Source: Terriglobus tenax (lineage in GTDB: Bacteria; Acidobacteriota; Terriglobia; Terriglobales; Acidobacteriaceae). From it: a stretch of 64,000 bases of DNA. The stretch spans positions 186,001-250,000 of the forward strand of contig NZ_JAGSYA010000003.1 in the NCBI RefSeq assembly GCF_025685395.1, written 5' to 3'. Shown piece after piece: positions 24,262 to 36,312 of this stretch. A program made the position numbers and the translations under genes. Within the stretch, counting starts at the first letter, position 1, and each line of letters starts with the position of its first letter. The notes under the pieces were generated by a model. It was given only the letters and a program-made list of their open reading frames with translations. It searched no databases and had not been told where the DNA came from.

Positions 24262-25557
24262 ATGGCCCAGGCAAGACAGAGTACGGTCACGCGAAATTTA
24301 CTGATTGTCTACTGCCTCTCCACGGTATTGATCTCCCTGGCGGCCTGCTACGCCTTCCTCAGCCAGCACCGGGCATCGGTATACCTGTTGCCCAACCTTG
24401 TCGGCCCCACCGCGCAGTCGTTGACTGAGCGGCATAGCTTCACCGTCTGTCCTACGGACCCCGCCATCGATCCATACCTCTGCCTGTATGACGGACGTAT
24501 GCCCGCCGCCAGTGTTTTCATCGCCGTGTTGCGTGGCATCGTCGGAGATGATTCGCTGCGGGTCGGCCTGGTTAAGACCGTCCTGATGCTTACACTGGTC
24601 TGGCTGGCCGGATGGACCGTGTTCTCCTCCGTCAGCCCTCGCAAGGCAGCACTGGTGCTGGCGCTGCTGCTTGTGCCCTTCTTTGCAACGCCGCTTCTGG
24701 CGGACGTCGTGAACCTCCAGGTGGAGGAAGGCTATACCTACAGCGCCCTCATGCTTTGTGTGGCCCTGCTGCTGTTTCCAGCCTTCTGGATCAGCGAGAG
24801 CGGCCGCGCCAGGTGGCCGTGGCTCATCACCCTGGCGCTCTCGGTCGACCTGTTGTACCTGGCCAAAAGCTCGATGATTGCTGTAGTGGCGGTGCTCGTG
24901 TTCTGGGGACTGCTGCAGGTTAAGCCGGGCGCACAGCGGCTGGCTCTCTGCCTGCTGGTGCTGGCTGCTCCGGTTGGCTGGATGGTCCACGCGCACACAG
25001 TCAGCGGGCGCTACGCCATCGGTACCAGCCTGGACGGCATCAACTTCCACAAGGGGAACAATGCGAAGTTCCTGGAGCGGTTCCCTCCTCAGCCCGGAAG
25101 GAATCTCGATGAATTCGACCATGAACTGAACGTCGGTCACGTCTTTCACAACGAATGGGAGTACAGCGACTACCACCTGCAGGCCGGCAAGCAGTACATG
25201 CGCAAGCATCCATCCGAGACGGTGACAGGCTGGTGGCGCAAATTTTACGTCCTGTTCTTCAGCATGAAGAAGATCGGCTCGACTGAGAGCCAGGGAGCCA
25301 TGAGGCTGGCTGAGACCCTGGGCCTGGTGATCCTGCGGGTGTTCCTCTGGGTTTCCTTCCTGCTCTGTTGCCTGTGGATCGTCCGCCCGGCTCTGCCCGG
25401 TGACCGGCTTTCGGGGCTGCTGATGCTGGCGTTGTTCGGCGCGGCTGCGGCACCTTACCTTGCCGGTTTTGGTTACACCCGGCACATCAGCGTGCTTCTT
25501 CTGCCCGCCGCGCTGGTACTGTGCAGGTACGCCGCGCCCAAAGCCCGGTTTTTCTAG
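24262..25557 (+). CDS. Polytopic membrane protein of unknown function
   Basis: The 431-residue protein has about ten hydrophobic helices. Helix 1 spans about residues 12-32 (LLIVYCLSTVLISLAACYAF), and a short extracytoplasmic loop follows with paired Cys residues (FTVCPTDPAIDPYLCLYDGR) that could form a disulphide. A soluble loop at about residues 250-330 is rich in Tyr, His and Trp (HNEWEYSDYHLQAGKQYM) before the last four helices. The general layout resembles GT-C-type transferases or O-antigen-related membrane proteins, but the acidic motif after helix 1 is less clear than in the divergent neighbour. The two probably belong to one surface-glycan function, which is an inference from position only. 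Confidence 0.6.
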   Translation: MAQARQSTVTRNLLIVYCLSTVLISLAACYAFLSQHRASVYLLPNLVGPTAQSLTERHSFTVCPTDPAIDPYLCLYDGRMPAASVFIAVLRGIVGDDSLRVGLVKTVLMLTLVWLAGWTVFSSVSPRKAALVLALLLVPFFATPLLADVVNLQVEEGYTYSALMLCVALLLFPAFWISESGRARWPWLITLALSVDLLYLAKSSMIAVVAVLVFWGLLQVKPGAQRLALCLLVLAAPVGWMVHAHTVSGRYAIGTSLDGINFHKGNNAKFLERFPPQPGRNLDEFDHELNVGHVFHNEWEYSDYHLQAGKQYMRKHPSETVTGWWRKFYVLFFSMKKIGSTESQGAMRLAETLGLVILRVFLWVSFLLCCLWIVRPALPGDRLSGLLMLALFGAAAAPYLAGFGYTRHISVLLLPAALVLCRYAAPKARFF

Positions 25558-25631: not shown

Positions 25632-26696
25632 ATGTCGTCAAACGGTTTCCAGCAGCGCACATCGCGGGGGCGTAGCCTACGCTCTCTGTTCAGCCTTTTC
25701 TCCAGCGATCTTGCCATCGATCTCGGCACTGCGAACACCCTGGTCTATGCCCATGGGAAGGGAATTGTCGTCAACGAGCCGTCGATCGTGGCCATCAACA
25801 AGTCGACCGGCGAGGTTGAGGCCGTCGGGAAAGAGGCCAAGGAGATGCTTGGCCGTACTCCGGGCAACATTGTTGCCATCAAGCCGATGAAGGACGGCGT
25901 CATCGCCGACTTCAAGGTCACGGAGAAGATGCTCAACTACTTCATTCAAAAGGCGCATAACCGCAAGCGCATGGTGCATCCGCGCATCATCATCGGTGTG
26001 CCGTCTGAGATTACACAGGTGGAAAAGCGCGCCGTTGAGGACTCCGCCTACCGCGCAAAGGCCTCCGAGGTGTACCTCGTTGAGCAGGCCATGGTGGCCG
26101 CCATCGGCGCAGGGCTGCCCATTACCGAGCCCGGCGGCAACATGGTTGTCGACATCGGCGGCGGCACTACGGACATCGCCGTCATCTCCCTGGCCGGCAT
26201 TGTGTATTCGCGCTCCGTCCGCATGGCTGGTAACCAGATGGACGAGGCAGTGATGAACTACCTCAAGCGCAAGTACAACCTCCTGATCGGCGAGCGTACC
26301 GCGGAGCAGATCAAGATGGAAGTCGGTTCCGCCTATCCTCTGGACAAGCCGCTGACGATGGAAATCAAGGGCCGCAACCTGATTGAAGGCGTGCCGAAGA
26401 CCATCACCATCGACGATTCGGAGATCCGCGAGGCTCTGGGCGAGTGCATTGCCACCATCATGAATGCCATCCGCGTCGCTCTCGAACGCACTCCGCCGGA
26501 GCTCTCGGCCGACATCAGCGACCGTGGCATTGTGCTCACCGGCGGCGGAGCCCTGATCAAGAACCTGGACAAGCGCATCCGGGAGGAAACGGGGCTGCCC
26601 GTCTCCATCGCCGACGATCCGCTCGCTTCCGTGGTTCTGGGCACCGGCAAAATGCTCTCGGACTTCAAGCTGCTGCGTAAGATTTCGATCGACTAA
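25632..26696 (+). CDS. mreB: Rod-shape actin homologue MreB
   Basis: The 354-residue protein carries the actin-fold motifs DLAIDLGTANTLVY (phosphate 1), VVDIGGGTTDIAVISL (phosphate 2) and GIVLTGGGALIKNLD (adenosine). It forms membrane-associated filaments that organise lateral wall synthesis. About 24 residues precede the usual start of MreB, including an Arg-rich then hydrophobic segment (GRSLRSLFSLFSS) that could be the amphipathic membrane anchor of Gram-negative MreB. It is the first gene of the complete elongasome operon mreB-mreC-mreD-mrdA-rodA. Confidence 0.97.
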   Translation: MSSNGFQQRTSRGRSLRSLFSLFSSDLAIDLGTANTLVYAHGKGIVVNEPSIVAINKSTGEVEAVGKEAKEMLGRTPGNIVAIKPMKDGVIADFKVTEKMLNYFIQKAHNRKRMVHPRIIIGVPSEITQVEKRAVEDSAYRAKASEVYLVEQAMVAAIGAGLPITEPGGNMVVDIGGGTTDIAVISLAGIVYSRSVRMAGNQMDEAVMNYLKRKYNLLIGERTAEQIKMEVGSAYPLDKPLTMEIKGRNLIEGVPKTITIDDSEIREALGECIATIMNAIRVALERTPPELSADISDRGIVLTGGGALIKNLDKRIREETGLPVSIADDPLASVVLGTGKMLSDFKLLRKISID

Positions 26697-26710
26697 CCAC
26701 GGTCCATGGG

Positions 26711-26737
26711 GCGGCCCTGAAGGGGCCGCGCTCTTTC
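26711..26737 (+). terminator. Weak intercistronic hairpin after mreB
   Basis: GCGGCCC (26711-26717) pairs with GGGCCGC (26723-26729), followed by GCTCTTTC. The T-tract is poor, so it is more likely an attenuator or mRNA-processing boundary that lets mreB be made in excess of the rest of the operon. Confidence 0.45.
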
Positions 26738-26756
26738 GCCTTAGGCTCTCAAGATC

Positions 26757-27857
26757 ATGGAAGGGTTTTTCGCCAGGTACAAGAACGCGCTCGTACTGAT
26801 TGCGGTGCTGGTGGCCTTCACCATTGGCCTGGCCGTGCAGGTGCGGAGGCCCGACTATGGCTCGCGCGAGGACGGCAGGAACGTCCGTGTCTTCCGCTAC
26901 TGGGCCGTGGCGCTGGTTTCGCCGTTCGAACGCCTGTTCCGCGGAACCGGGCAGGGCATCCGTGGCATCTGGCATAACTACATTGACCTTCGCGGCATCC
27001 GCAGGCAGAACGAGCAGTTGAAGCAGGACCTGGACCGCATGCGTCTCTACCAGGCCGCGCTGGCGGAAGACGCTCGCCAGGGCCAGCGTCTACAGACCCT
27101 GCTCGATTTCAAGCAGAAGTACATTGCGAAGACAGTCGCCGCGCAGGTCATCGGCACCAGCGGAAGCGAGCAATCCCGCGTGATCTATATCGACAAGGGC
27201 GTGGCCGACGGCTTGAAGCCGGACATGGCGGTCATTACGCCGGACGGCATCGTGGGCAAGCTGCGCGACGTATTTCAGCACTCGGCTCAGGTGCTGGTTA
27301 TCAATGACACCACCTCCGGCGCGGGTGTCGTGCTGGAGACGACGCGTATCCGCGGCGTCCTGCGCGGCACCGGCGACGGCCGCCTGCGCATCCTTGACGT
27401 TCTGCCCGACAGCCGCATCAAGCCCGGTGAAAAGGTGCTGACCAGCGGAGGAGACCAGGTCTTTCCGCGCGGCCTGAACGCCGGTGTGGTGGAGAGCATC
27501 GGTCAGGACCGCAACTATGCCCGGGTGATCGTCAAGCCGACCGCGAATCTGGCCCGTCTGGAAGAGGTGCTGGTGGTCGTCGAGAAGGGAGCAGCCGCCT
27601 CCGACCAGGTGGCCTCTGCCGAAGGAGAGCCGGAGACCGGCGCACGCGGCGAACATCTGCCGCAGCTCAGGCAGGACTCCCCGGATGAGGAAGCGAAGGA
27701 GGCCAAAGAGGCCCCGCTGCCGCGTCCGACCCCTGTCACCCGCCCGGACAAGTACAGCCCCGGCACAACGCCTTCGGCAGCCTCTCTGACCCCAGGTGCA
27801 CGGCAGGGAGAGGCCGATACGGCTCCTCAATCCAACCAGGGAGGGAACGACCGCTAA
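26757..27857 (+). CDS. mreC: Rod-shape-determining protein MreC
   Basis: The 366-residue bitopic membrane protein has a transmembrane helix at about residues 10-28 (ALVLIAVLVAFTIGLAV). A coiled-coil stretch lies at about 75-110 (RQNEQLKQDLDRMRLYQAAL), and the two beta-barrel domains include DGIVGKLRDVFQHSAQVLVI. MreC scaffolds PBP2-RodA in the periplasm. The last about 80 residues (after VVVEKG) are a Pro/Glu/Ala-rich disordered tail with acidic clusters that is absent from E. coli MreC. The stop codon overlaps the mreD start by one base (TAATG). Confidence 0.95.
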   Translation: MEGFFARYKNALVLIAVLVAFTIGLAVQVRRPDYGSREDGRNVRVFRYWAVALVSPFERLFRGTGQGIRGIWHNYIDLRGIRRQNEQLKQDLDRMRLYQAALAEDARQGQRLQTLLDFKQKYIAKTVAAQVIGTSGSEQSRVIYIDKGVADGLKPDMAVITPDGIVGKLRDVFQHSAQVLVINDTTSGAGVVLETTRIRGVLRGTGDGRLRILDVLPDSRIKPGEKVLTSGGDQVFPRGLNAGVVESIGQDRNYARVIVKPTANLARLEEVLVVVEKGAAASDQVASAEGEPETGARGEHLPQLRQDSPDEEAKEAKEAPLPRPTPVTRPDKYSPGTTPSAASLTPGARQGEADTAPQSNQGGNDR

Positions 27858-28387
27858 TGGCAGGCCTTGGACGCATGTACAGTTCCCGCCGGGAGATGGA
27901 TGAGCACGTCTTTCATCCGGCAATCAGTCTTATCGTGCCGCTGGTGGCCATCTTCGCCGGTGCCTACCTGCCGCGGCTGGCTCCGTGGCTCATCATTCTT
28001 GACTTGCCACTGATCGTCGTCATTTTCTTCGCGGTGGCGCGGCGCAGCCCCATCTCCGGCGTTCTGACCGGCGGTGTCATCGGCATGCTGCAGGACCTCC
28101 TGCTGAACCAGCCCATCGGCATCAACGGCATGGTGAAAGCTATCGTTGGCTACATTGCAGCGTCCATCAGCCTGCGGGTTGATGTGGATGCGCTGGCCAC
28201 GCGGGTCGTCATGAATTTCGGCTTCTGCCTGCTGCAGAGCGTGCTGATGCTGGGCATCTATCACTGGCTGCTGCAGGATGTGAATGTGCAGGTGCGCTGG
28301 CTGCATGAGCTGCTGCGCGCGGGTGTGAATACGGTCATCGCCATTCCTCTGTTTTTCCTGCTGGATTCCACCAAGCAGCAGGCCTGA
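27857..28387 (+). CDS. mreD: Rod-shape-determining protein MreD
   Basis: The 176-residue protein has about five transmembrane helices of the MreD/RodD family, with conserved segments RSPISGVLTGGVIGMLQDL and NQPIGINGMVKAIVGYIA. It helps MreC control PBP2-RodA. The first 25 residues, including GRMYSSRREMDEHVFHP, form a cytoplasmic extension. Its ATG overlaps the last base of mreC, which fixes the start. Confidence 0.92.
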   Translation: MAGLGRMYSSRREMDEHVFHPAISLIVPLVAIFAGAYLPRLAPWLIILDLPLIVVIFFAVARRSPISGVLTGGVIGMLQDLLLNQPIGINGMVKAIVGYIAASISLRVDVDALATRVVMNFGFCLLQSVLMLGIYHWLLQDVNVQVRWLHELLRAGVNTVIAIPLFFLLDSTKQQA

Positions 28388-28452
28388 AGAGAGCCGTTGC
28401 ACAGCGCGCCAGGGCAGGCGCAAGGTTATAGGCGTAGGTCGGAGCGGAACCA

Positions 28453-30357
28453 ATGCTGGACGAAAACTCGGTCATATCCAAAGAGGAGAAGGTCTCTCCG
28501 CTGAAGCTGAACATGGTTCAGTATGTTGTGGCGCTGATGCTCGTGGTGCTTCTCGCCGGGCTTTGGCGTCTGCAGGTGGTCAGCGCCGACAACTACCGCG
28601 TTCTGGCCGAGCAGAACCGCATCCGCAAGGTGCCCATTATGGCGCCGCGCGGCAAGATCTTCGACCGCGAAGGCCGTCTCCTGGTCGACAACTACGCCTC
28701 CATCTCCTGCTACCTTCTGCGCGAGCCCTCGCACGACCTGACCGCTGACCTGCCCCGCATCGCAGAGGGGCTGCATATGACGGTCGACCAGATCCAGTAC
28801 GTTCTGCGCAAATACCAGTACGCTCCCAAATACCAGCCCATCCCGCTGAAGCAGGACCTCTCGCCCGACGAGGTGGCCTTCATCGAGGCGCACCGCAATG
28901 AGCTGCCCGAGCTGGAAACACTGGACGAGCAGCGCCGTCTGTATCCCAACGGAGGCTTCGCGGCCCACCTGATCGGCTACGTTGGAGAAATCAGCGAAAA
29001 CGACCTGAACAAGGAGAAATACGCCTTCTACCAGGCCGGCGATGTTGTCGGAAAGTCCGGCGTGGAGGCTACCTACGACGCCGTCCTGCGCGGTACGGAC
29101 GGCTCCCGCGATGTGGTCGTCGACAGCCGTGGCCGCGAGGTCGGCCAGCTTGGCCAGCAGGACCCCGTCCCCGGCAAGGACCTTCGCCTCAGCATCGATC
29201 TTGACCTGCAGATGGCTGCCGAGAAAGCCATGGAAGGCAAGACCGGCGCCATGGTCGCCATGGACCCGCACACCGGCCAGATTCTCGCCATGGTTTCGCG
29301 GCCTACGTATGACCCCAACCAGTTCGCCGTCCGCCTGACCCGCGACTACTGGAACAAGATCCTCAACGACCAGGACCACCCCATGATGAACAAGGCCATC
29401 CAGGCGCAGCTCGCACCGGGGTCCACCTTCAAGATCATCATGTCCTACGCTGGCCTGGAAGAAGGCCTGGCGCAGGATCTGCACGTAAACTGCGCGGGCG
29501 GCGGCACCTTCTTCGGCCACTTCTTTGCCTGCGACAAGCACCACGGAGGCGTCGACATCTATCACGCCATTCCGTGGAGCTGTGACACTTTTTACTACAC
29601 GCTGGCCGAGCGCCTGCAGATCGATACCATCGCGAAATACGCCACCTCGGTCGGCATCGGCCAGAAAACCGGCATCGACCTGCCGGACGAGGCAACCGGC
29701 ACGATGCCCTCTACCGCCTGGAAGCTGAAGAACTTCCACGACAAGTGGTACGCGGGTGAGGTCATCTCGGTCGGCATCGGGCAGGGAGCTGTGCAGGCTT
29801 CTCCCATTCAGCTGGCCCGCGCGCTCAGCGGCATTGCCTCCGGCGGAGCCCTGAAGCGTCCACACGTCATCCTCGACGGTCAGCTCCCGGAGCAGTATGT
29901 CCAGGCCGTACGCGATACCTATCCCGGTAGCGGGGAAAAACAGGTGCCCCTCAAGACGGAGAACTGGCAGATCATCACTGATGCCATGGCGGAGACCCTG
30001 AACACCGGCACCGCCGCCGCCTCTCACTTGGAAGGCATCGACTTTGCCGGAAAGACCGGCACCGCGCAGGTGATGAGCCACGCGGCCCTGGCGCGTTCCG
30101 GCGGCGGCAAAAAGACCGTGCCCAACGCATGGTTTGTCGGCATGGCTCCGCGCCGCAATCCGGATATCGTCGTTGCCGTGTTGTGGGAGAACGGCGACTG
30201 GGGATCGAACTCCGCCAAGCTGGGCGCGCAGGTGGTCAACACCTTTGTGGAAAAGCAGAGGAAAAAGGCCGGCAACCTGATCAAGGTCGCTGAAGCTCCC
30301 AAACCCGCGCCGTCTTCTGGCAGTGCGGCTAAAAAAGAAGAGCCGGTCACCAACTAG
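28453..30357 (+). CDS. mrdA: Penicillin-binding protein 2 (elongasome transpeptidase)
   Basis: The 634-residue class B PBP has a transmembrane helix at about residues 23-42, a pedestal domain (MAPRGKIFDREGRLLVDN) and the transpeptidase domain. The catalytic Ser is in GSTFK near residue 325; WSCDTF supplies the SxN-type motif (Ser-Cys-Asp, as in PBP2 proteins) and AGKTGTAQV the KTG triad. It cross-links lateral-wall peptidoglycan with RodA. The C-terminal 30 residues are a Lys/Pro-rich tail. Position between mreD and rodA distinguishes it from division PBP3. Confidence 0.96.
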   Translation: MLDENSVISKEEKVSPLKLNMVQYVVALMLVVLLAGLWRLQVVSADNYRVLAEQNRIRKVPIMAPRGKIFDREGRLLVDNYASISCYLLREPSHDLTADLPRIAEGLHMTVDQIQYVLRKYQYAPKYQPIPLKQDLSPDEVAFIEAHRNELPELETLDEQRRLYPNGGFAAHLIGYVGEISENDLNKEKYAFYQAGDVVGKSGVEATYDAVLRGTDGSRDVVVDSRGREVGQLGQQDPVPGKDLRLSIDLDLQMAAEKAMEGKTGAMVAMDPHTGQILAMVSRPTYDPNQFAVRLTRDYWNKILNDQDHPMMNKAIQAQLAPGSTFKIIMSYAGLEEGLAQDLHVNCAGGGTFFGHFFACDKHHGGVDIYHAIPWSCDTFYYTLAERLQIDTIAKYATSVGIGQKTGIDLPDEATGTMPSTAWKLKNFHDKWYAGEVISVGIGQGAVQASPIQLARALSGIASGGALKRPHVILDGQLPEQYVQAVRDTYPGSGEKQVPLKTENWQIITDAMAETLNTGTAAASHLEGIDFAGKTGTAQVMSHAALARSGGGKKTVPNAWFVGMAPRRNPDIVVAVLWENGDWGSNSAKLGAQVVNTFVEKQRKKAGNLIKVAEAPKPAPSSGSAAKKEEPVTN

Positions 30358-30428
30358 TCAATTCGCTGCCCGGGAGACGAGCCGTATTGCTCTCCACGCA
30401 GCCGTTACACTGAAGCTGTCCTATCTCC

Positions 30429-31529
30429 ATGCGCCGTTTTTCAACCTTCCGCGATTTCGATTGGGTCCTGCTGGGCTTTGTGCTGCTGCTGAGCGTGATC
30501 TCCGTGCTGGAGATTTACTCGGCGACGATGCACACCAAGTTCCATGGTTTTGAGAAGAAGCAGATGGAGTTCCTGATCATCGGCCTGGTGCTGATGTTCC
30601 TTGTCTCGCTGATCGACTATCACATGCTGCTGGAGATCGTTCCCTGGGCCTATGGGGTCAGTATCGTTTCCCTGATTGCGGTGGCCCTTGTGGGAACAAG
30701 GGTGCTCGGCGCAAAGCGGTGGATCAAGTTTCCCGGGGGCATTCACTTCCAGCCAAGCGAGTGGATCAAACTCGTGCTGGTGATCGCCGTCGCCCGGTAT
30801 TTCTGGAGCCTGGGCGGGCGAGACCTTACCTGGAAGGACATCGCCAAGGCCTTCGCACTGGTGTGCATTCCCATGCTGATGGTGCTCAAGCAGCCGGACC
30901 TCGGCACCGCGCTGACCTATTCACCCATCCTGATCTGCGGCCTCTTCCTGGGCGGCATCCGCTTCAAGCAGGCGGCCATCCTTGTCATCAGCTTCCTTCT
31001 GCTGGTAGGCGGGGTGTGGAAGACGGGTAAGTTGCTGAAGCCTTACCAGAAGGCCCGCCTGACCAACTTTATTGACCCGGACAACGACCCGCAGGGCTCC
31101 GGCTACCAGATTCGCCAGTCGCTGATCGCTGTCGGCTCGGGCGGTATCTGGGGCAAGGGAACCACCAAGGGCACGCAGACGCAGGGCGACTTCCTGCCTA
31201 TTCCGTATACGGACTTCATCTTCGCAGCCTTCTGCGAGGAGCATGGTTTTGTCGGTGCGCTGGGCGTTCTGCTGATCTACTTCCTGATCCTGATGCGGCT
31301 GATCCAGAACGCGCAGACCGCGCCCGATCCACCCGGAGCCTTCATCATAATGGGCATTGTGGCCATCATCATCTTCCAGATGGCGGTCAACATCGGCATG
31401 GTCATCGGCTTTATGCCGGTCACAGGCATTCCGCTGCCGCTTATGAGCTACGGAGGGTCGTCCGTACTGTTCACCTTCATGGCGCTGGGGATTGTGATGA
31501 ATGTGCGTATGCGCCGGTTTGTGAACTAG
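30429..31529 (+). CDS. rodA: SEDS peptidoglycan glycosyltransferase RodA
   Basis: The 366-residue protein has about ten transmembrane helices. SEDS signatures are ALVGTRVLGAKRWIKFPG, the FQPSEWIKLVLVI segment, the extracytoplasmic loop DFLPIPYTDFIFA that contains the essential Asp, and the C-terminal LPLMSYGGSSVLFTFMALGI. It polymerises glycan strands with PBP2. It ends the mre operon. Its TAG stop overlaps the stop of an oppositely oriented antitoxin remnant (31526-31676), and I see no terminator in the space between them. Confidence 0.96.
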   Translation: MRRFSTFRDFDWVLLGFVLLLSVISVLEIYSATMHTKFHGFEKKQMEFLIIGLVLMFLVSLIDYHMLLEIVPWAYGVSIVSLIAVALVGTRVLGAKRWIKFPGGIHFQPSEWIKLVLVIAVARYFWSLGGRDLTWKDIAKAFALVCIPMLMVLKQPDLGTALTYSPILICGLFLGGIRFKQAAILVISFLLLVGGVWKTGKLLKPYQKARLTNFIDPDNDPQGSGYQIRQSLIAVGSGGIWGKGTTKGTQTQGDFLPIPYTDFIFAAFCEEHGFVGALGVLLIYFLILMRLIQNAQTAPDPPGAFIIMGIVAIIIFQMAVNIGMVIGFMPVTGIPLPLMSYGGSSVLFTFMALGIVMNVRMRRFVN

Positions 31530-32103: not shown

Positions 32104-35100
32104 ATGTCGAAGGAAATTTTCATCTCCTCAACGCCGCACGAAACGCGGCTGGCCATCGTGGAAAACGATGCGCTTTCGGAGATCTACTACGAGCGCGAGA
32201 ACGAGTACACCCTCGCCGGCTCCATCTATAAAGGCAAAGTAACGCGCGTTCTCCCGGGTATGCAGTCGGCGTTTGTCGACATCGGCCTGGAGCGCGATGC
32301 CTTCCTCTACATTACCGATTTTTTGGAAGAGAGCCCGGACTCGGATGAGTTCGATACCGAGGGCTCTGCTCCTGCCGCAAGTGCCAGCACCTCGTCTGAA
32401 CCGCGTGCTGAGCGTGGCGACAAGGCCGACCGCGGGGACAAGGGCGGACGCCGCCGTGGCCGTGGACGCCGTGGACGCGACCGTGGCGACCGCACCGAAC
32501 AGCCCCAGGCTGCGCAGGACGCGCCCACCGGCGAGACCGTTGTACTCGAAGGCGGCTTCTCGGATGACGAGCCCGCAGAGTTTACCGCTCCGGCAGTAAG
32601 CGAGGGCGGAGACAGCCAGGCACAGGGTGAGGACGAGGCAGGCAGCCGTCGCTGGCGTGGCCGTCGCGGCCGTCGCCGTGGCCGCGGAGCCCGTCGTGAC
32701 GAGCAGCAGGCCGCTCTGAGCGGTGAGCCCCGTTCCGAGCATGAGTCCGACCCCGTTGAATTTGAGCCCGAAGCACACCCGGCTGAATTGCCGGAGCTGC
32801 ACGCCGAGGTCGCCGCTGACCTGGAAGCGCCGTTTGTTCTGCCCGGCGAATCTCTATCGAAGTACCGCACCGGCGGCGAACCTGCTCCCACGGAAGAGGC
32901 AAAGCCCGCAGCCGCTGCTGCTCCGGCCGTTGTTGGCCTGGCCAAGCCCAAGACCCTTGTAGAAGAGCTGGACGCCACCGGCTGGGATGGCGGTTTCGCT
33001 CTTCCCGGCGAGACGCTGAGCCGCCGTCGTGGCGGCAAGCCGCAGGCAGCTCCCAGGCCCATCGCGGAAGCTGTTCCTGTCATCGCCGAGCAGCCCACCG
33101 AGGTACAGGCCACCGCTACCGATCTGGAGTTCTCTCCTGCAGCGGAGGAGAAGCCGGTCGAAGCCGCTGCTGAGGCAGTAGTTGAGGCCTCTCCTGTTGC
33201 CGAGGCTGCCGTCGAAGCTGCTCCTGCGGAAGCTGTTGTGGAAGCACCGGCTGCCAAGCCGGAAGAGCCCACCGAGTACGAGCCCACCGAGGGGTCAGCC
33301 TCGTTCCGTGTCGATCCTTCGCAGAGCGAGTTCCGTCAGAAGCCGGAACCGGAGGTTGAGGAAGAAGAGATTGTGATCGAGGAGGCCGCTGCTGAGGAGA
33401 ACGAGGCAGTTGAGCATGCCTTTACCACCCTGCAGCCCACGGGCGAGATGATCTCTGAGGTAGCGACTCCGGAAGACCCCGCCGCTCCGATCGAGCACGA
33501 GTCCGCTGTACAGTCCGTCACTCTCGCGGAAGCTGAGTTTGCCGTGACCCCGGTGGAAGAGACTGTTGCCGCCGCTTCGCCTGTCCTGGATGGCGAGTTT
33601 GAAGAAGAGGTCATCGAAGAGGAAGAGTACGAGTTCGAGCCTCTGGCCATGCACGCCTCCGACGATGAGTTCTTTGAGGATGACCTGGAGGAGGAGACGC
33701 TGGAAGGCGCCGCCGACCTGGGCACCATGCTGCGCGACATGTCCATTGACGAGGCGACCCAGCCCGATGAGGACGAAGAAGAAGATGAGGACGAGCACGA
33801 GGAGCTGACACTCGAAGGCGATTTTGAGGAGACCTCAGAGGAAGATGCTCCCTCAGAAGAAGAGGCGGAAGGTGTCACCGCCGACGGACAGGCCCAGCCG
33901 CGCCGCGAGCGCAGCGGCCGCCGTGATCGGGATGGCCGCCGTGGCGGACGCAGCGGCGGACGTGACCGTGGCGGTAACCGCGACCGCGGTCGTGGCGGAC
34001 GTGGCCCCAGCCGTGCCTCTATGCAGACCACCGACCTGCCGGCCATCAGCGACCTGCTGAAGCCCGGCCAGGAGGTCCTGGTCCAGATCGCCAAGGAGCC
34101 CATCGCCAAGAAGGGTGCGCGCATCACCTCGCACATTGCCCTTCCGGGCCGCTTCCTGGTCTTTATGCCGACGGTCAACCACGTTGGTGTCTCGCGTAAG
34201 ATCTCGTCGGATGATGAGCGTCGCCGCCTGAAGCAGGTACTGCTCAGCGAAAAGGGCGAGGCCACCGGTGGCTTTATTGTCCGCACGGCCGCCGACGGCG
34301 CCAGCGAGCAGGAGCTCCGCAGCGACCTTCGCTTCCTGATCAACCTGTGGAACGATATCAAGGGCCGTTCGGAGTCTTCCAAGCCGCCCGCGCTGATCTA
34401 CCACGATCTCAACCTCGTCGAGCGCATCCTGCGCGACCAGGTCACCGATACCTTCTCGCACATCTGGGTCGACACGGAAACCGAGTACGAGCGTGTCCTT
34501 CGCTTCCTGCAGCGCTTTGAGCCCTCGCTCATTCGCCGCGTGAAGCTCTACACCAAGGAAACGCCGCTCTTCGAGCAGTTCGGCATCTCGGAAGAGATCA
34601 ACAAGGCCCTGCGTTCGAAGGTATGGCTGAAGTCTGGCGGATCCATCGTGATCAACCAGACTGAGGCGCTGGTAGCCATCGACATCAACACCGGCAAGTA
34701 CGTCGGCAAGACGGCCCGCCTTGAGGACACCATCGTCAAGACGAACCTCGACGCCATCCCGGAGATCGTTCGCCAGATCCGCCTGCGCGACCTGGGCGGC
34801 ATCATTGTCATCGACTTCATCGACATGGACGAGCGCAAGAACCGCCAGAAGGTGCTCACCGCTCTCGAAGAAGAGTTGAAGAACGATCGTGCCCCGTCGA
34901 AGGTTCTGCAGTTCAACGATTTCGGTCTTGTGGCGATCACGCGTAAGCGCGTGAAGCAGTCGCTGGAGCGCACCCTGAGCACCCAGTGCAACATCTGCGC
35001 CGGCACCGGCATGGTGAAGTCGCCGGTCACGGTTGCCAACGAGATCTACATCGAGATGCGCAAGATGTACAAGCACATCGACAAGGGCGACGTGATGCTG

Positions 35101-35238
35101 CGCGTGCATCCTGAGGTGGTCAAGCAGTTGAAGACCAACAATGCAAACTGGCTGCACGAGATGGAAGAGATGACGGGCAAGACCATCCTGGTGAAGAGCG
35201 ACCCGAGCCTGCACCCGGAGCAGTTTGATATCCACTAA
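32104..35238 (+). CDS. Ribonuclease E/G with S1 domain split by a ~570-residue insertion
   Basis: The protein has 1044 residues. Residues 1-76 are the first half of the S1 domain (SIYKGKVTRVLPGMQSAFVD, ERDAFLYITDFLEE). The second half resumes at about 648 (LLKPGQEVLVQIAKEPIAKK). The catalytic core follows: Asp860 in ALVAIDINTG and Asp904 in IIVIDFIDMD match the Mg-binding Asp pair of E. coli RNase E (spacing 44 against 43), and C962-N-I-C965 is the zinc-link. Without the insertion the enzyme is RNase G-sized. The insertion has Arg/Gly-rich basic tracts at each end (about 100-130, 180-195, 600-640), a strongly acidic middle, and two copies of a motif FxLPGExLSxxR at 244 and 298. It probably binds RNA and partners. 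The leader and a terminator show it is a single-gene unit. Confidence 0.93.
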   Translation: MSKEIFISSTPHETRLAIVENDALSEIYYERENEYTLAGSIYKGKVTRVLPGMQSAFVDIGLERDAFLYITDFLEESPDSDEFDTEGSAPAASASTSSEPRAERGDKADRGDKGGRRRGRGRRGRDRGDRTEQPQAAQDAPTGETVVLEGGFSDDEPAEFTAPAVSEGGDSQAQGEDEAGSRRWRGRRGRRRGRGARRDEQQAALSGEPRSEHESDPVEFEPEAHPAELPELHAEVAADLEAPFVLPGESLSKYRTGGEPAPTEEAKPAAAAAPAVVGLAKPKTLVEELDATGWDGGFALPGETLSRRRGGKPQAAPRPIAEAVPVIAEQPTEVQATATDLEFSPAAEEKPVEAAAEAVVEASPVAEAAVEAAPAEAVVEAPAAKPEEPTEYEPTEGSASFRVDPSQSEFRQKPEPEVEEEEIVIEEAAAEENEAVEHAFTTLQPTGEMISEVATPEDPAAPIEHESAVQSVTLAEAEFAVTPVEETVAAASPVLDGEFEEEVIEEEEYEFEPLAMHASDDEFFEDDLEEETLEGAADLGTMLRDMSIDEATQPDEDEEEDEDEHEELTLEGDFEETSEEDAPSEEEAEGVTADGQAQPRRERSGRRDRDGRRGGRSGGRDRGGNRDRGRGGRGPSRASMQTTDLPAISDLLKPGQEVLVQIAKEPIAKKGARITSHIALPGRFLVFMPTVNHVGVSRKISSDDERRRLKQVLLSEKGEATGGFIVRTAADGASEQELRSDLRFLINLWNDIKGRSESSKPPALIYHDLNLVERILRDQVTDTFSHIWVDTETEYERVLRFLQRFEPSLIRRVKLYTKETPLFEQFGISEEINKALRSKVWLKSGGSIVINQTEALVAIDINTGKYVGKTARLEDTIVKTNLDAIPEIVRQIRLRDLGGIIVIDFIDMDERKNRQKVLTALEEELKNDRAPSKVLQFNDFGLVAITRKRVKQSLERTLSTQCNICAGTGMVKSPVTVANEIYIEMRKMYKHIDKGDVMLRVHPEVVKQLKTNNANWLHEMEEMTGKTILVKSDPSLHPEQFDIH

Positions 35239-35253
35239 ACCCTAATGGAATGG

Positions 35254-35293
35254 CGGGTTCCGCATTGCACGATGCGGAACCCGTTTTCTTTTG
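35254..35293 (+). terminator. Rho-independent terminator of rne/rng
   Basis: A perfect 12-bp stem, CGGGTTCCGCAT (35254-35265) with ATGCGGAACCCG (35272-35283), has a six-base loop and is followed by TTTTCTTTTG. Confidence 0.92.
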
Positions 35294-35406
35294 TTTGTAT
35301 CCATTTGCCGGGAAAAAGCGTCCTACACAACAACCGGGAAAAACCGGTGTCTGAACAGGCCAGAGGATACCCATATCCTCGTTTGAACCAAGGAGCGATA
35401 CATATC

Positions 35407-36312
35407 ATGCAGATGAGTACTGAGTTTGCCGGCCGGCGCATTGTCAAAATTCTAGGAGTGTTTGCCCTGGCGGCAGGATCGCTGGTCGCCAAAGCGCAGA
35501 CCGCACAGGAACCGAAGCTGGATCTGACTCCGTCTCTTCCTTCGCTGAACCAGTACCTGCACGACACTACGCCGGAGGCGAGCTACAGCTCGTCGCAGGT
35601 GGCCATGGTGGAGCCTGCCATGAACTTCTCCTCCAGCGAGATGCAGCCGCCCCCGCGCCGCCAGTACGGGCGTCCGCGTTACAACGACCGCAACCATAAT
35701 CCTGATGGCTCCAACCGCTACACCTTTGCCGTCGGTGGCGGATTCGCCGTTCCGGCCGGTCACAGCGGCCAGATCTTCAAGCCAAGCTGGAAGTTCATGG
35801 TCGGCGGCGGTGTGAACTTCAACAAGACCGTGGCCCTGTTGCTGGAATACAACTATGACCACTTCGGCATGACGCAGGGCTACCTGCAGGCCGTGGCCGA
35901 TGCCAATGACATGACCCAGCTGGGCGGCAACGGCCACCTGTGGTCCGTCACGCTGAACCCGATGATCACCTACTACCACGGCGAGAGCCTGGGCGCGTAC
36001 ATCATCGGCGGCGGTGGCTTCTATCGCAAGCTCTTCAACTTCACGCAGGCCACCACGCAGCTTTGCTACAGCCCGTATTACGGCTACTACTACTGCACCG
36101 GCAACCAGACCATTGCGCACTGGTCCAACAACGCTGGCGGAGCCAACCTGGGTGCGGGCTTTACCTGGAAGGTCTCCAAGTGGAGCAACCAGAAGTTCTT
36201 TGCCGAGGCACGCTACGTATGGGTGAACAACCAGAAGAACCTGAACAATGGCTGGATTGAGGCCAACGACCGCACCGGCTATTTCCCGGTGACCTTCGGT
36301 CTACGTTGGTAG
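35407..36312 (+). CDS. Outer-membrane beta-barrel protein (OmpA/opacity-like)
   Basis: The 301-residue protein starts at ATG 35407, after AAGGAG eleven bases upstream; this gives a signal peptide (residues 5-30, ending SLVAKAQ). Residues about 35-95 are low complexity with a PPPRRQYGRPRYNDRN segment. The rest alternates strands and turns (YTFAVGGGFAVPAGHS, WKFMVGGGVNFNK, LGAYIIGGGGFYRK) and ends ...YFPVTFGLRW with a terminal aromatic, the barrel-insertion signature. An eight-strand barrel is likely. Function is unknown. It is enclosed by strong terminators on both sides, so it is a single-gene unit. Confidence 0.8.
   Translation: MQMSTEFAGRRIVKILGVFALAAGSLVAKAQTAQEPKLDLTPSLPSLNQYLHDTTPEASYSSSQVAMVEPAMNFSSSEMQPPPRRQYGRPRYNDRNHNPDGSNRYTFAVGGGFAVPAGHSGQIFKPSWKFMVGGGVNFNKTVALLLEYNYDHFGMTQGYLQAVADANDMTQLGGNGHLWSVTLNPMITYYHGESLGAYIIGGGGFYRKLFNFTQATTQLCYSPYYGYYYCTGNQTIAHWSNNAGGANLGAGFTWKVSKWSNQKFFAEARYVWVNNQKNLNNGWIEANDRTGYFPVTFGLRW

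Follow-up and report, generated by a model that had tools for sequence, protein, structure and literature searches.

What is a segment of 567 amino acids, most of it predicted to be disordered, doing inside the S1 domain of a ribonuclease, and how did it come to be there? The question is raised by a gene for a protein of the ribonuclease (RNase) E/G family in the soil acidobacterium Terriglobus tenax (assembly GCF_025685395.1). We studied it within a stretch of 64,000 nucleotides (contig NZ_JAGSYA010000003.1, positions 186,001 to 250,000 of the forward strand), referred to here as the window. The reading that we favor, at a little better than an even chance, is that this is an RNase E/G in which an intrinsically disordered loop, having grown from within the S1 barrel, acts as the degradosome-type scaffold.

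We compared the protein with Escherichia coli RNase E (structure 2vrt) using phmmer. Results showed that residues 4–75 matched chain residues 3–75, and that residues 644–977 matched chain residues 86–419. Because the protein has 567 amino acids where E. coli RNase E has roughly 10 loop residues, residues 77–643 constitute an insertion in the S1 barrel. The parts of the gene are as follows.

32104..35238, plus strand: RNase E/G gene, 1044 amino acids with stop (open reading frame from ATG; Pfam/NCBIfam).
32104..32331, plus strand: residues 1–76, N-terminal part and first S1 half (phmmer; model strands 40–49, 55–59 and 66–69).
32332..34032, plus strand: residues 77–643, the 567-amino-acid insertion, predicted disordered, between the S1 halves (phmmer, alignment, AlphaFold2).
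34033..34401, plus strand: residues 644–766, second S1 half and 5'-sensor (phmmer, alignment; 1smx aligned across the gap).
34612..34953, plus strand: DNase I-like catalytic subdomain with Asp860 and Asp904 (phmmer, alignment, structure match).
34987..34998, plus strand: zinc-link CNIC, residues 962–965 (phmmer, alignment).
34999..35235, plus strand: small C-terminal domain, residues 966–1044, with no C-terminal tail (PF20833 at 961–1043).

In the AlphaFold2 model, built on the 59-sequence alignment described below, the catalytic part was mostly confident and S1 strands were present on both sides of the gap. Block values of the predicted local distance difference test (pLDDT) were ~25–45 through the insertion, the exception being a helix at 536–551 (block means 52 and 71), and the insertion is the sole large region of the protein predicted to be disordered. 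E. coli RNase E was the top structural match of the model (Z 20.9); domain packing in the model is unreliable because the root-mean-square deviation (rmsd) of this match was 14.5 Å. The E. coli S1 structure 1smx aligned with model residues 39–665 at Z 5.4 and rmsd 2.4 Å, with 58 residues aligned at 52% identity, and from the model we infer that the two S1 halves would close into one barrel. An earlier note on this DNA had described a disordered insertion of ~570 residues within S1 that begins after residue ~76, and both its extent and its start agree with our results; the note was also right that S1 resumes after it, but at ~644 rather than at 648. We considered the alternative raised in that note, a folded domain outside S1 at 77–648, and rejected it: none was predicted in 77–643, where no Pfam (E 1) or NCBIfam (E 0.1) model had its best stretch and pLDDT was low save for the one helix, although a small domain may still exist.

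On either side of the insertion the RNase E/G core is complete by alignment, and the catalytic and zinc-link residues are intact, as the earlier note had claimed. Asp860 and Asp904 align with the pair of positions at which the inactive E. coli mutant 5f6c carries Arg. Both were invariant among 59 aligned sequences, as were Arg727-Thr728, Phe57 and Phe67, and the conservation of Cys962 and Cys965 was at least 90% (the conservation alignment is without 6 of 64 rows: L014, L033, L046, L058, L064 and L077). We take Phe57 and Phe67 to be functional residues of S1 and Arg727-Thr728 to be the 5'-sensor pair; the S1 halves and sensor also align to 2bx2 by sequence. The protein scored 341.6 bits against PF10150 (curated cut-off 25.5), for which it was the one match in its own genome, and 479.2 bits against TIGR00757 (cut-off 325.95). 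Pfam placed RNase_E_G at 680–950 and RNase_E_G_Thio (PF20833) at 961–1043, and its S1 model covered just residues 39–71, under the cut-off. Five NCBIfam models matched, each in two separate stretches. The top NCBIfam score, 485.7 bits, was from the RNase G equivalog NF008689, under its 594-bit cut-off, and the E. coli-type RNase E equivalog NF008074 gave 268.7 bits, below its cut-off of 908.

The insertion recurs in relatives. We scanned contigs with six peptide patterns and found at least 77 loci, 71 of these from Acidobacteriota by title or sequence; because three of the six patterns lie in the insertion, the scan favors insertion-bearing relatives. Among the matches listed and the loci from a phylum search, an S1 insertion of 444–941 amino acids was found at the same point in all 71 relatives that were measured (those with a core identity of 72% or more and both S1 halves present in the sequence), including the complete genomes of Terriglobus roseus DSM 18391 (L010) and strain ZG23-2 (L062). 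Loci with a single S1 half were left unmeasured (L001, L023, L054, L056, L060, most of L079–L100, L104 and L105). Two further searches were independent of the insertion sequence. A query with the catalytic part found open frames of at least 955 amino acids in all 27 family genomes, that of T. tenax included, and PF10150 was matched in 56/60 family genomes, 54 of the 56 with frames of at least 756 amino acids; the two short frames (G052, 433 amino acids; G024, 357) may be cut by contig ends. We concluded from these comparisons that the insertion is not an artefact, and that it is old and shared by relatives. Three loci titled Rhodanobacteraceae or Verrucomicrobia (L041, L058 and L067) encode an RNase E/G with 88–89% core identity to that of the window, and are probably mislabelled records or mixed metagenome-assembled genomes.

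Ratios of nonsynonymous to synonymous divergence (dN/dS) in comparisons of the window with two close relatives were 0.12–0.13 in the insertion and 0.03–0.04 in the core, and those between the two relatives were 0.10 and 0.02, respectively; the ratios are rough because dS in the insertion exceeded 1 in two of the three comparisons. Nucleotide differences in the insertion fell mostly at third codon positions. By these codon comparisons the insertion is under purifying selection at the protein level. It also differs from the downstream core in base composition (GC at third codon positions, GC3, 0.663 vs 0.863; GC at positions 1 and 2 higher in the insertion), and dS to the same relatives was greater in the insertion than in the core.

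We then considered where the insertion came from. The catalytic part was matched in 215/247 Acidobacteriota genomes. In 63 proteins from outside the T. tenax family, picked to span families and not at random, the S1 loop measured 14–85 amino acids in 23, 112–306 in 20 and 324–545 in 20, so that 40/63 had a loop of more than 100; together with the 71 relatives (134 proteins measured) the range across the phylum was 14 to 941 amino acids. In a tree of 92 rows built from the S1 halves and core, in which 18 family rows were picked at random, the 63 Acidobacteriota rows with a loop of at least 112 amino acids formed one clade (support 99 by the Shimodaira–Hasegawa-like approximate likelihood ratio test, obtained by a quick method). 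Nested within this clade were the long-loop families and then the T. tenax family; support for the clade was just 88 in a 68-row tree. At the other end of the protein, −1 to 3 residues lay past the core match in 123/124 complete Acidobacteriota proteins and 12 in one, where complete means that the 3' end was present and the match reached core residue 395 (L147, outside the 124, has 11 residues beyond its match). Because the loop lengthens stepwise on the tree and no more than 12 residues follow the core, the S1 loop looks to have expanded independently and in place. The earlier note had proposed that the platform moved from the usual C-terminal tail; that idea is unsupported, because the same loop lengthens along the tree and none of the 124 proteins has a long tail.

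Within the insertion, the family alignment revealed conserved islands that alternate with poorly conserved linkers rich in Ala, Pro and Glu. Its landmarks are these.

32443..32493, plus strand: Arg/Gly tract 1, residues 114–130 (composition).
32647..32688, plus strand: conserved basic island RRWRGRRGRRRGRG, residues 182–195 (column conservation; exact RRWRGRR in 58/72 relatives).
32830..32868, plus strand: PFVLPGESLSKYR, residues 243–255, first LPGE motif (LPGE[ST] search).
32980..33030, plus strand: GWDGGFALPGETLSRRR, residues 293–309, second LPGE motif, GWDGG..LPGE.LSR.R (conservation, LPGE search, spacing).
33274..33339, plus strand: EYEPTEGSASFRVDPSQSEFRQ island, residues 391–412 (column conservation).
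33601..33636, plus strand: acidic-aromatic island EEEVIEEEEYEF, residues 500–511 (column conservation).
33688..33756, plus strand: EEETLEGAADLGTMLRDMSIDEA island, residues 529–551, with predicted helix 536–551 (conservation, AlphaFold2).
33772..33891, plus strand: most acidic block, residues 557–596 (40-residue charge windows).
33901..34005, plus strand: C-terminal Arg/Gly tract, residues 600–634 (conservation, composition).

Basic tracts lie toward both ends of the insertion and acidic blocks lie between them. In 40-residue windows the net charge was −9 at 197–236 and −6 to −22 in the windows from 317 to 596, with the peak of acidity at 557–596 (22 acidic residues, 0 basic), adjoining the last Arg/Gly tract. 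Thus the Arg/Gly flanks described in the earlier note were borne out (114–130, 182–195 and 600–634), and its acidic center was not: acidity peaks near the C-terminal boundary. Compared with shuffles of the same composition, charge segregation in the insertion gave z 6.6 for 5-residue blobs and 10.4 for 20-residue blobs (1.4 and −0.4 in the core). The pattern is one of long blocks and not of fine alternation, and it is weak in some relatives.

The motif LPGE[ST] was found in 72/72 family members, with at least two copies in 67/72, which makes 141 copies in total, where shuffled sequences averaged 0.21. Where every landmark could be located (31/72 members), the two LPGE motifs lay 42–58 amino acids apart (standard deviation 3.6), with standard deviations of 26–53 for the other segments; over all 66 members with at least two copies the motifs lay 20–58 apart, median 50 (the motif used for spacing being LPGE[ST] followed by Leu, Ile or Val). 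Because the spacing of the pair is constrained while other segments vary, the pair may be a bivalent unit. A degenerate DNA pattern for LPGE[ST]L occurred twice genome-wide, both times in the RNase E/G gene, and a reversed control pattern occurred once. We did not find a membrane-type amphipathic helix in the insertion, where the eight best hydrophobic moments were Arg-rich tracts.

Other families fill the same loop differently. Repeats of [FYILH][EQ]R[IV]xD[DE] occupied the S1 loop in 21/21 proteins of families f20, f31, f10, f68, f70 and f59, and this FER-type motif was found in 0/72 members of the T. tenax family. By hhalign the f20 and f31 insertions are homologous (98.7% probability). Loops of FER[IV]xDD-like sequence were seen in L117, L149–L158, L167 and L168 (f20), in L113, L128, L159 and L160 (f31), and in L107, L109, L114 and L120; most FER-motif loops also hold a helix segment resembling G[ED][ML][FL]KDA.

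What might the insertion do? The tail that ends E. coli RNase E offers an analogy: like it, the insertion probably collects RNA and other enzymes, and we infer a role as a platform for RNA binding or for partners. The analogy also draws on the tail motifs of Pseudomonas aeruginosa RNase E and on RhlB binding in Caulobacter crescentus, both described below. Of the RNA-binding or degradosome platform claimed in the earlier note, the part that concerns sequence stands, that is, conserved motifs in a region predicted to be disordered; the binding would follow from the analogy. If the S1 halves close into one barrel as predicted, each subunit would have one such loop, emerging next to the RNA-binding groove. 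RNA could then be captured near the S1/5'-sensor channel by the Arg/Gly tracts (114–130, 182–195, 600–634), and the acidic stretches may stop these tracts from clamping down or may favor self-association through charge. Docking of other decay enzymes would fall to the LPGE pair, the 391–412 island and helix 536–551. The genome encodes a single PNPase and a single RNase J that score over cut-off, as well as 14 DEAD-domain matches of which the best was far ahead (154.8 bits, 481-amino-acid frame). These three (PNPase, RNase J and the top DEAD-box match) count as candidate partners because the genome encodes them, and not because binding was observed. Tethering at the RNA entry side might allow direct hand-over of RNA between enzymes.

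Several observations weigh against this reading. The AlphaFold2 model was mediocre (predicted template modeling score 0.35), with pLDDT of ~32–69 in the S1 blocks, and the S1 match, whose Z of 5.4 is below 8, may reflect no more than a common arrangement, though identity was 52%. Segregation of charge at the 5-residue scale was just z 1.3 in L128 and 0.3 in L108, and the acidic bias of the insertion could repel RNA. No known partner-binding motif was recognised in the insertion. LPGE[ST] was present in 0/40 insertions tested outside the family (f2 has LPGEF, by eye), and the FER-type motif in 0/19 others tested, including f28, f2 and 11 more; because both are missing there, the middle-sized loops tested show neither motif. 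By hhalign, the T. tenax family insertion matched those of f20 and f31 with 17% and 9% probability, through Arg/Gly stretches alone. Regular expressions for the shared helix and for EAS..SEF matched 38 and 24 of 72 rows of the T. tenax family, 16 and 3 of the 21 proteins of f20, f31, f10, f68, f70 and f59, and 0/19 elsewhere. Because these hits were patchy and hhalign matched Arg/Gly stretches only, we dropped deep homology of the insertions across families.

The strongest rival, which we consider rather unlikely as the whole explanation, is that the loop is a regulatory gate: it would mainly control access to the S1/5'-sensor channel, with the acidic part mimicking RNA and contending with it for the groove, Arg/Gly tracts or ligands relieving the block, and docking secondary or absent. 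The acidic block close to the C-terminal end of the insertion is in its favor. So are two results in the accessible text of PMC4245959, of which the first counts against a platform: in a Caulobacter crescentus crystal a helix of the S1 insert fills the RNA site with acidic side chains, and deletion of a plant insert lowers activity. However, 444–941 amino acids is far beyond the need of a gate, the conserved LPGE pairs and the turnover of motifs between families resemble docking motifs, and helix 536–551 is predicted at a distance in sequence from both boundaries. A gate and a platform may both hold.

Two other explanations appear weaker still. Mostly neutral growth, in which a permissive surface loop gained low-complexity sequence with few residues selected, would fit the two-fold length range within one family (444–941), the many insertion columns that align poorly, the Ala/Pro/Glu-rich linkers and a GC3 of 0.663 under the core's 0.863. 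We judge it improbable, given that purifying selection acts over the insertion by our estimates, that LPGE is found in 72/72 members with spacing constrained in most, and that within the phylum just one clade shows expansion beyond 111 amino acids. Least probable by far is that the gene yields a second, separate catalytic chain, either by translation from an internal start close to Met640 or by protease cleavage of the loop. The ATG of Met640 is in frame and disordered loops are protease-prone, but there is no visible ribosome site in the preceding 22 bases (the annotated start itself has only a weak purine stretch), and the shorter chain would lose half of the S1 barrel. The earlier note had named such a start as an alternative, and we rejected it on conservation: the position holds Met in 32/72 relatives and Ala in 30, whereas Met1 was present in 66/66 rows aligned from residue 1 (in L033, outside the 66, the alignment starts at residue 2 and the position before it is Arg).

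A broader version of the scaffold reading concerns RNase Y, another endonuclease that commonly serves as a scaffold, for which no match over cut-off was found in the T. tenax genome. RNase Y was present in 39/80 Acidobacteriota genomes; of the 32 genomes that lack an E/G match, 12 were among these 80, and 10 of the 12 had it. It was present in 0/28 tree rows with a loop of at least 311 amino acids vs 29/40 with shorter loops; the rows without it also include four with a loop under 112 and seven with 159–291 (ten f1 rows at cut loci used loop lengths based on open reading frames, which are upper estimates). On the 68-row tree the state of RNase Y changed 6 times and the loop class 3 times at thresholds of 250 and 311, and once at 112. 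Absence of RNase Y goes with a long S1 loop, largely in one clade, and this association is only suggestive because there are few independent pairs (1–3) and phylogenetic generalized least squares gave p = 0.057 (maximum-likelihood lambda 1). It is possible, and we put it forward tentatively, at well short of an even chance, that a degradosome with an S1-grown scaffold arose in one large clade of Acidobacteriota, that the loop grew as RNase Y was lost, and that mRNA decay was re-centered on E/G, with partners held at the RNA entrance through the bivalent LPGE pair and helix or, in sister families, through FER[IV]xDD repeats.

The gene lies downstream of a mre cluster, and rng is found beside mre genes in other bacteria as well.

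25632..31529, plus strand: mreB-mreC-mreD-mrdA(PBP2)-rodA, the upstream part of the mre/rng neighbourhood (Pfam, open reading frames).

Open reading frames at 24262–25554 and 35245–36309 border this mre-rng cluster, and at E 0.001 neither of the two matches a Pfam model; the latter has the look of an outer-membrane beta-barrel, by eye.

If the loop is a scaffold, then the ability to assemble a degradosome arose independently at a new site, beside the RNA channel, and the series of loops from 14 to 941 amino acids makes the origin of a scaffold directly testable. Searches for degradosomes that are limited to C-terminal tails would overlook the S1-loop type. A size-based survey gives 511 amino acids for the Fibrobacteres/Acidobacteria group and, in its accessible text, predicts no degradosome potential (PMC3071783); if our reading is true, a phylum listed there without RNase E degradosomes has its own convergent kind. 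Smaller inserts at the same place in S1 had been described before, which the earlier note overlooked (PMC4245959, accessible part). New here are the size of the insertion, the conserved motifs that it holds and the absence of a C-terminal tail. In a literature search, with most subscription papers outside its scope, we recognised no account of an S1 insertion in acidobacterial RNase E/G.

The closest known likeness is the insert of alpha-proteobacteria and plants (C. crescentus, PDB 4OXP). As the accessible text of PMC4245959 describes it, this insert is ~50–150 amino acids long, lies at the same S1 site, is highly charged and predicted to be disordered, and has a role called not understood there. 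Unlike it, the insertion here measures 567 (444–941 in relatives) and holds several conserved motifs. In addition, the C. crescentus enzyme still has a disordered tail of its own at the C-terminus, which the window protein is without, and RhlB of C. crescentus binds an S1/5'-sensor fragment that holds the S1 insert (PMC4245959, same part). Our rows L049–L051 hold 74–137 amino acids at the same alignment position. Another case goes under the name 'Wpi', presumably an abbreviation for Wolbachia. Its RNase E is mentioned with an insert of ~50 amino acids in a passage of PMC5436854.

RNase G (NF008689) shares with the window protein the mre/rng neighbourhood, the PF20833 C-terminal domain and the top-scoring NCBIfam model; the window protein differs in falling under the cut-off of that model and in carrying a giant insertion. 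The RNase E tails of bacterial ribonucleoprotein bodies (BR-bodies; C. crescentus and Sinorhizobium meliloti; PMC12691583, in part) are alike in their segregated charge blocks, and we found similar segregation in a Phenylobacterium tail (z 7.1 and 6.7). They differ in location. Lastly, the C-terminal scaffolds of E. coli and Pseudomonas aeruginosa RNase E (PMC4435900 and PMC11964227, accessible parts of both) resemble the insertion in being long and disordered, with basic tracts and short motifs beside the same core, and in the P. aeruginosa tail it is proven that short conserved motifs bind RNA as well as RhlB and PNPase (PMC11964227). In contrast, the putative scaffold of the window lies inside S1, its motifs look unrelated by eye, and it has no amphipathic helix that we could find.

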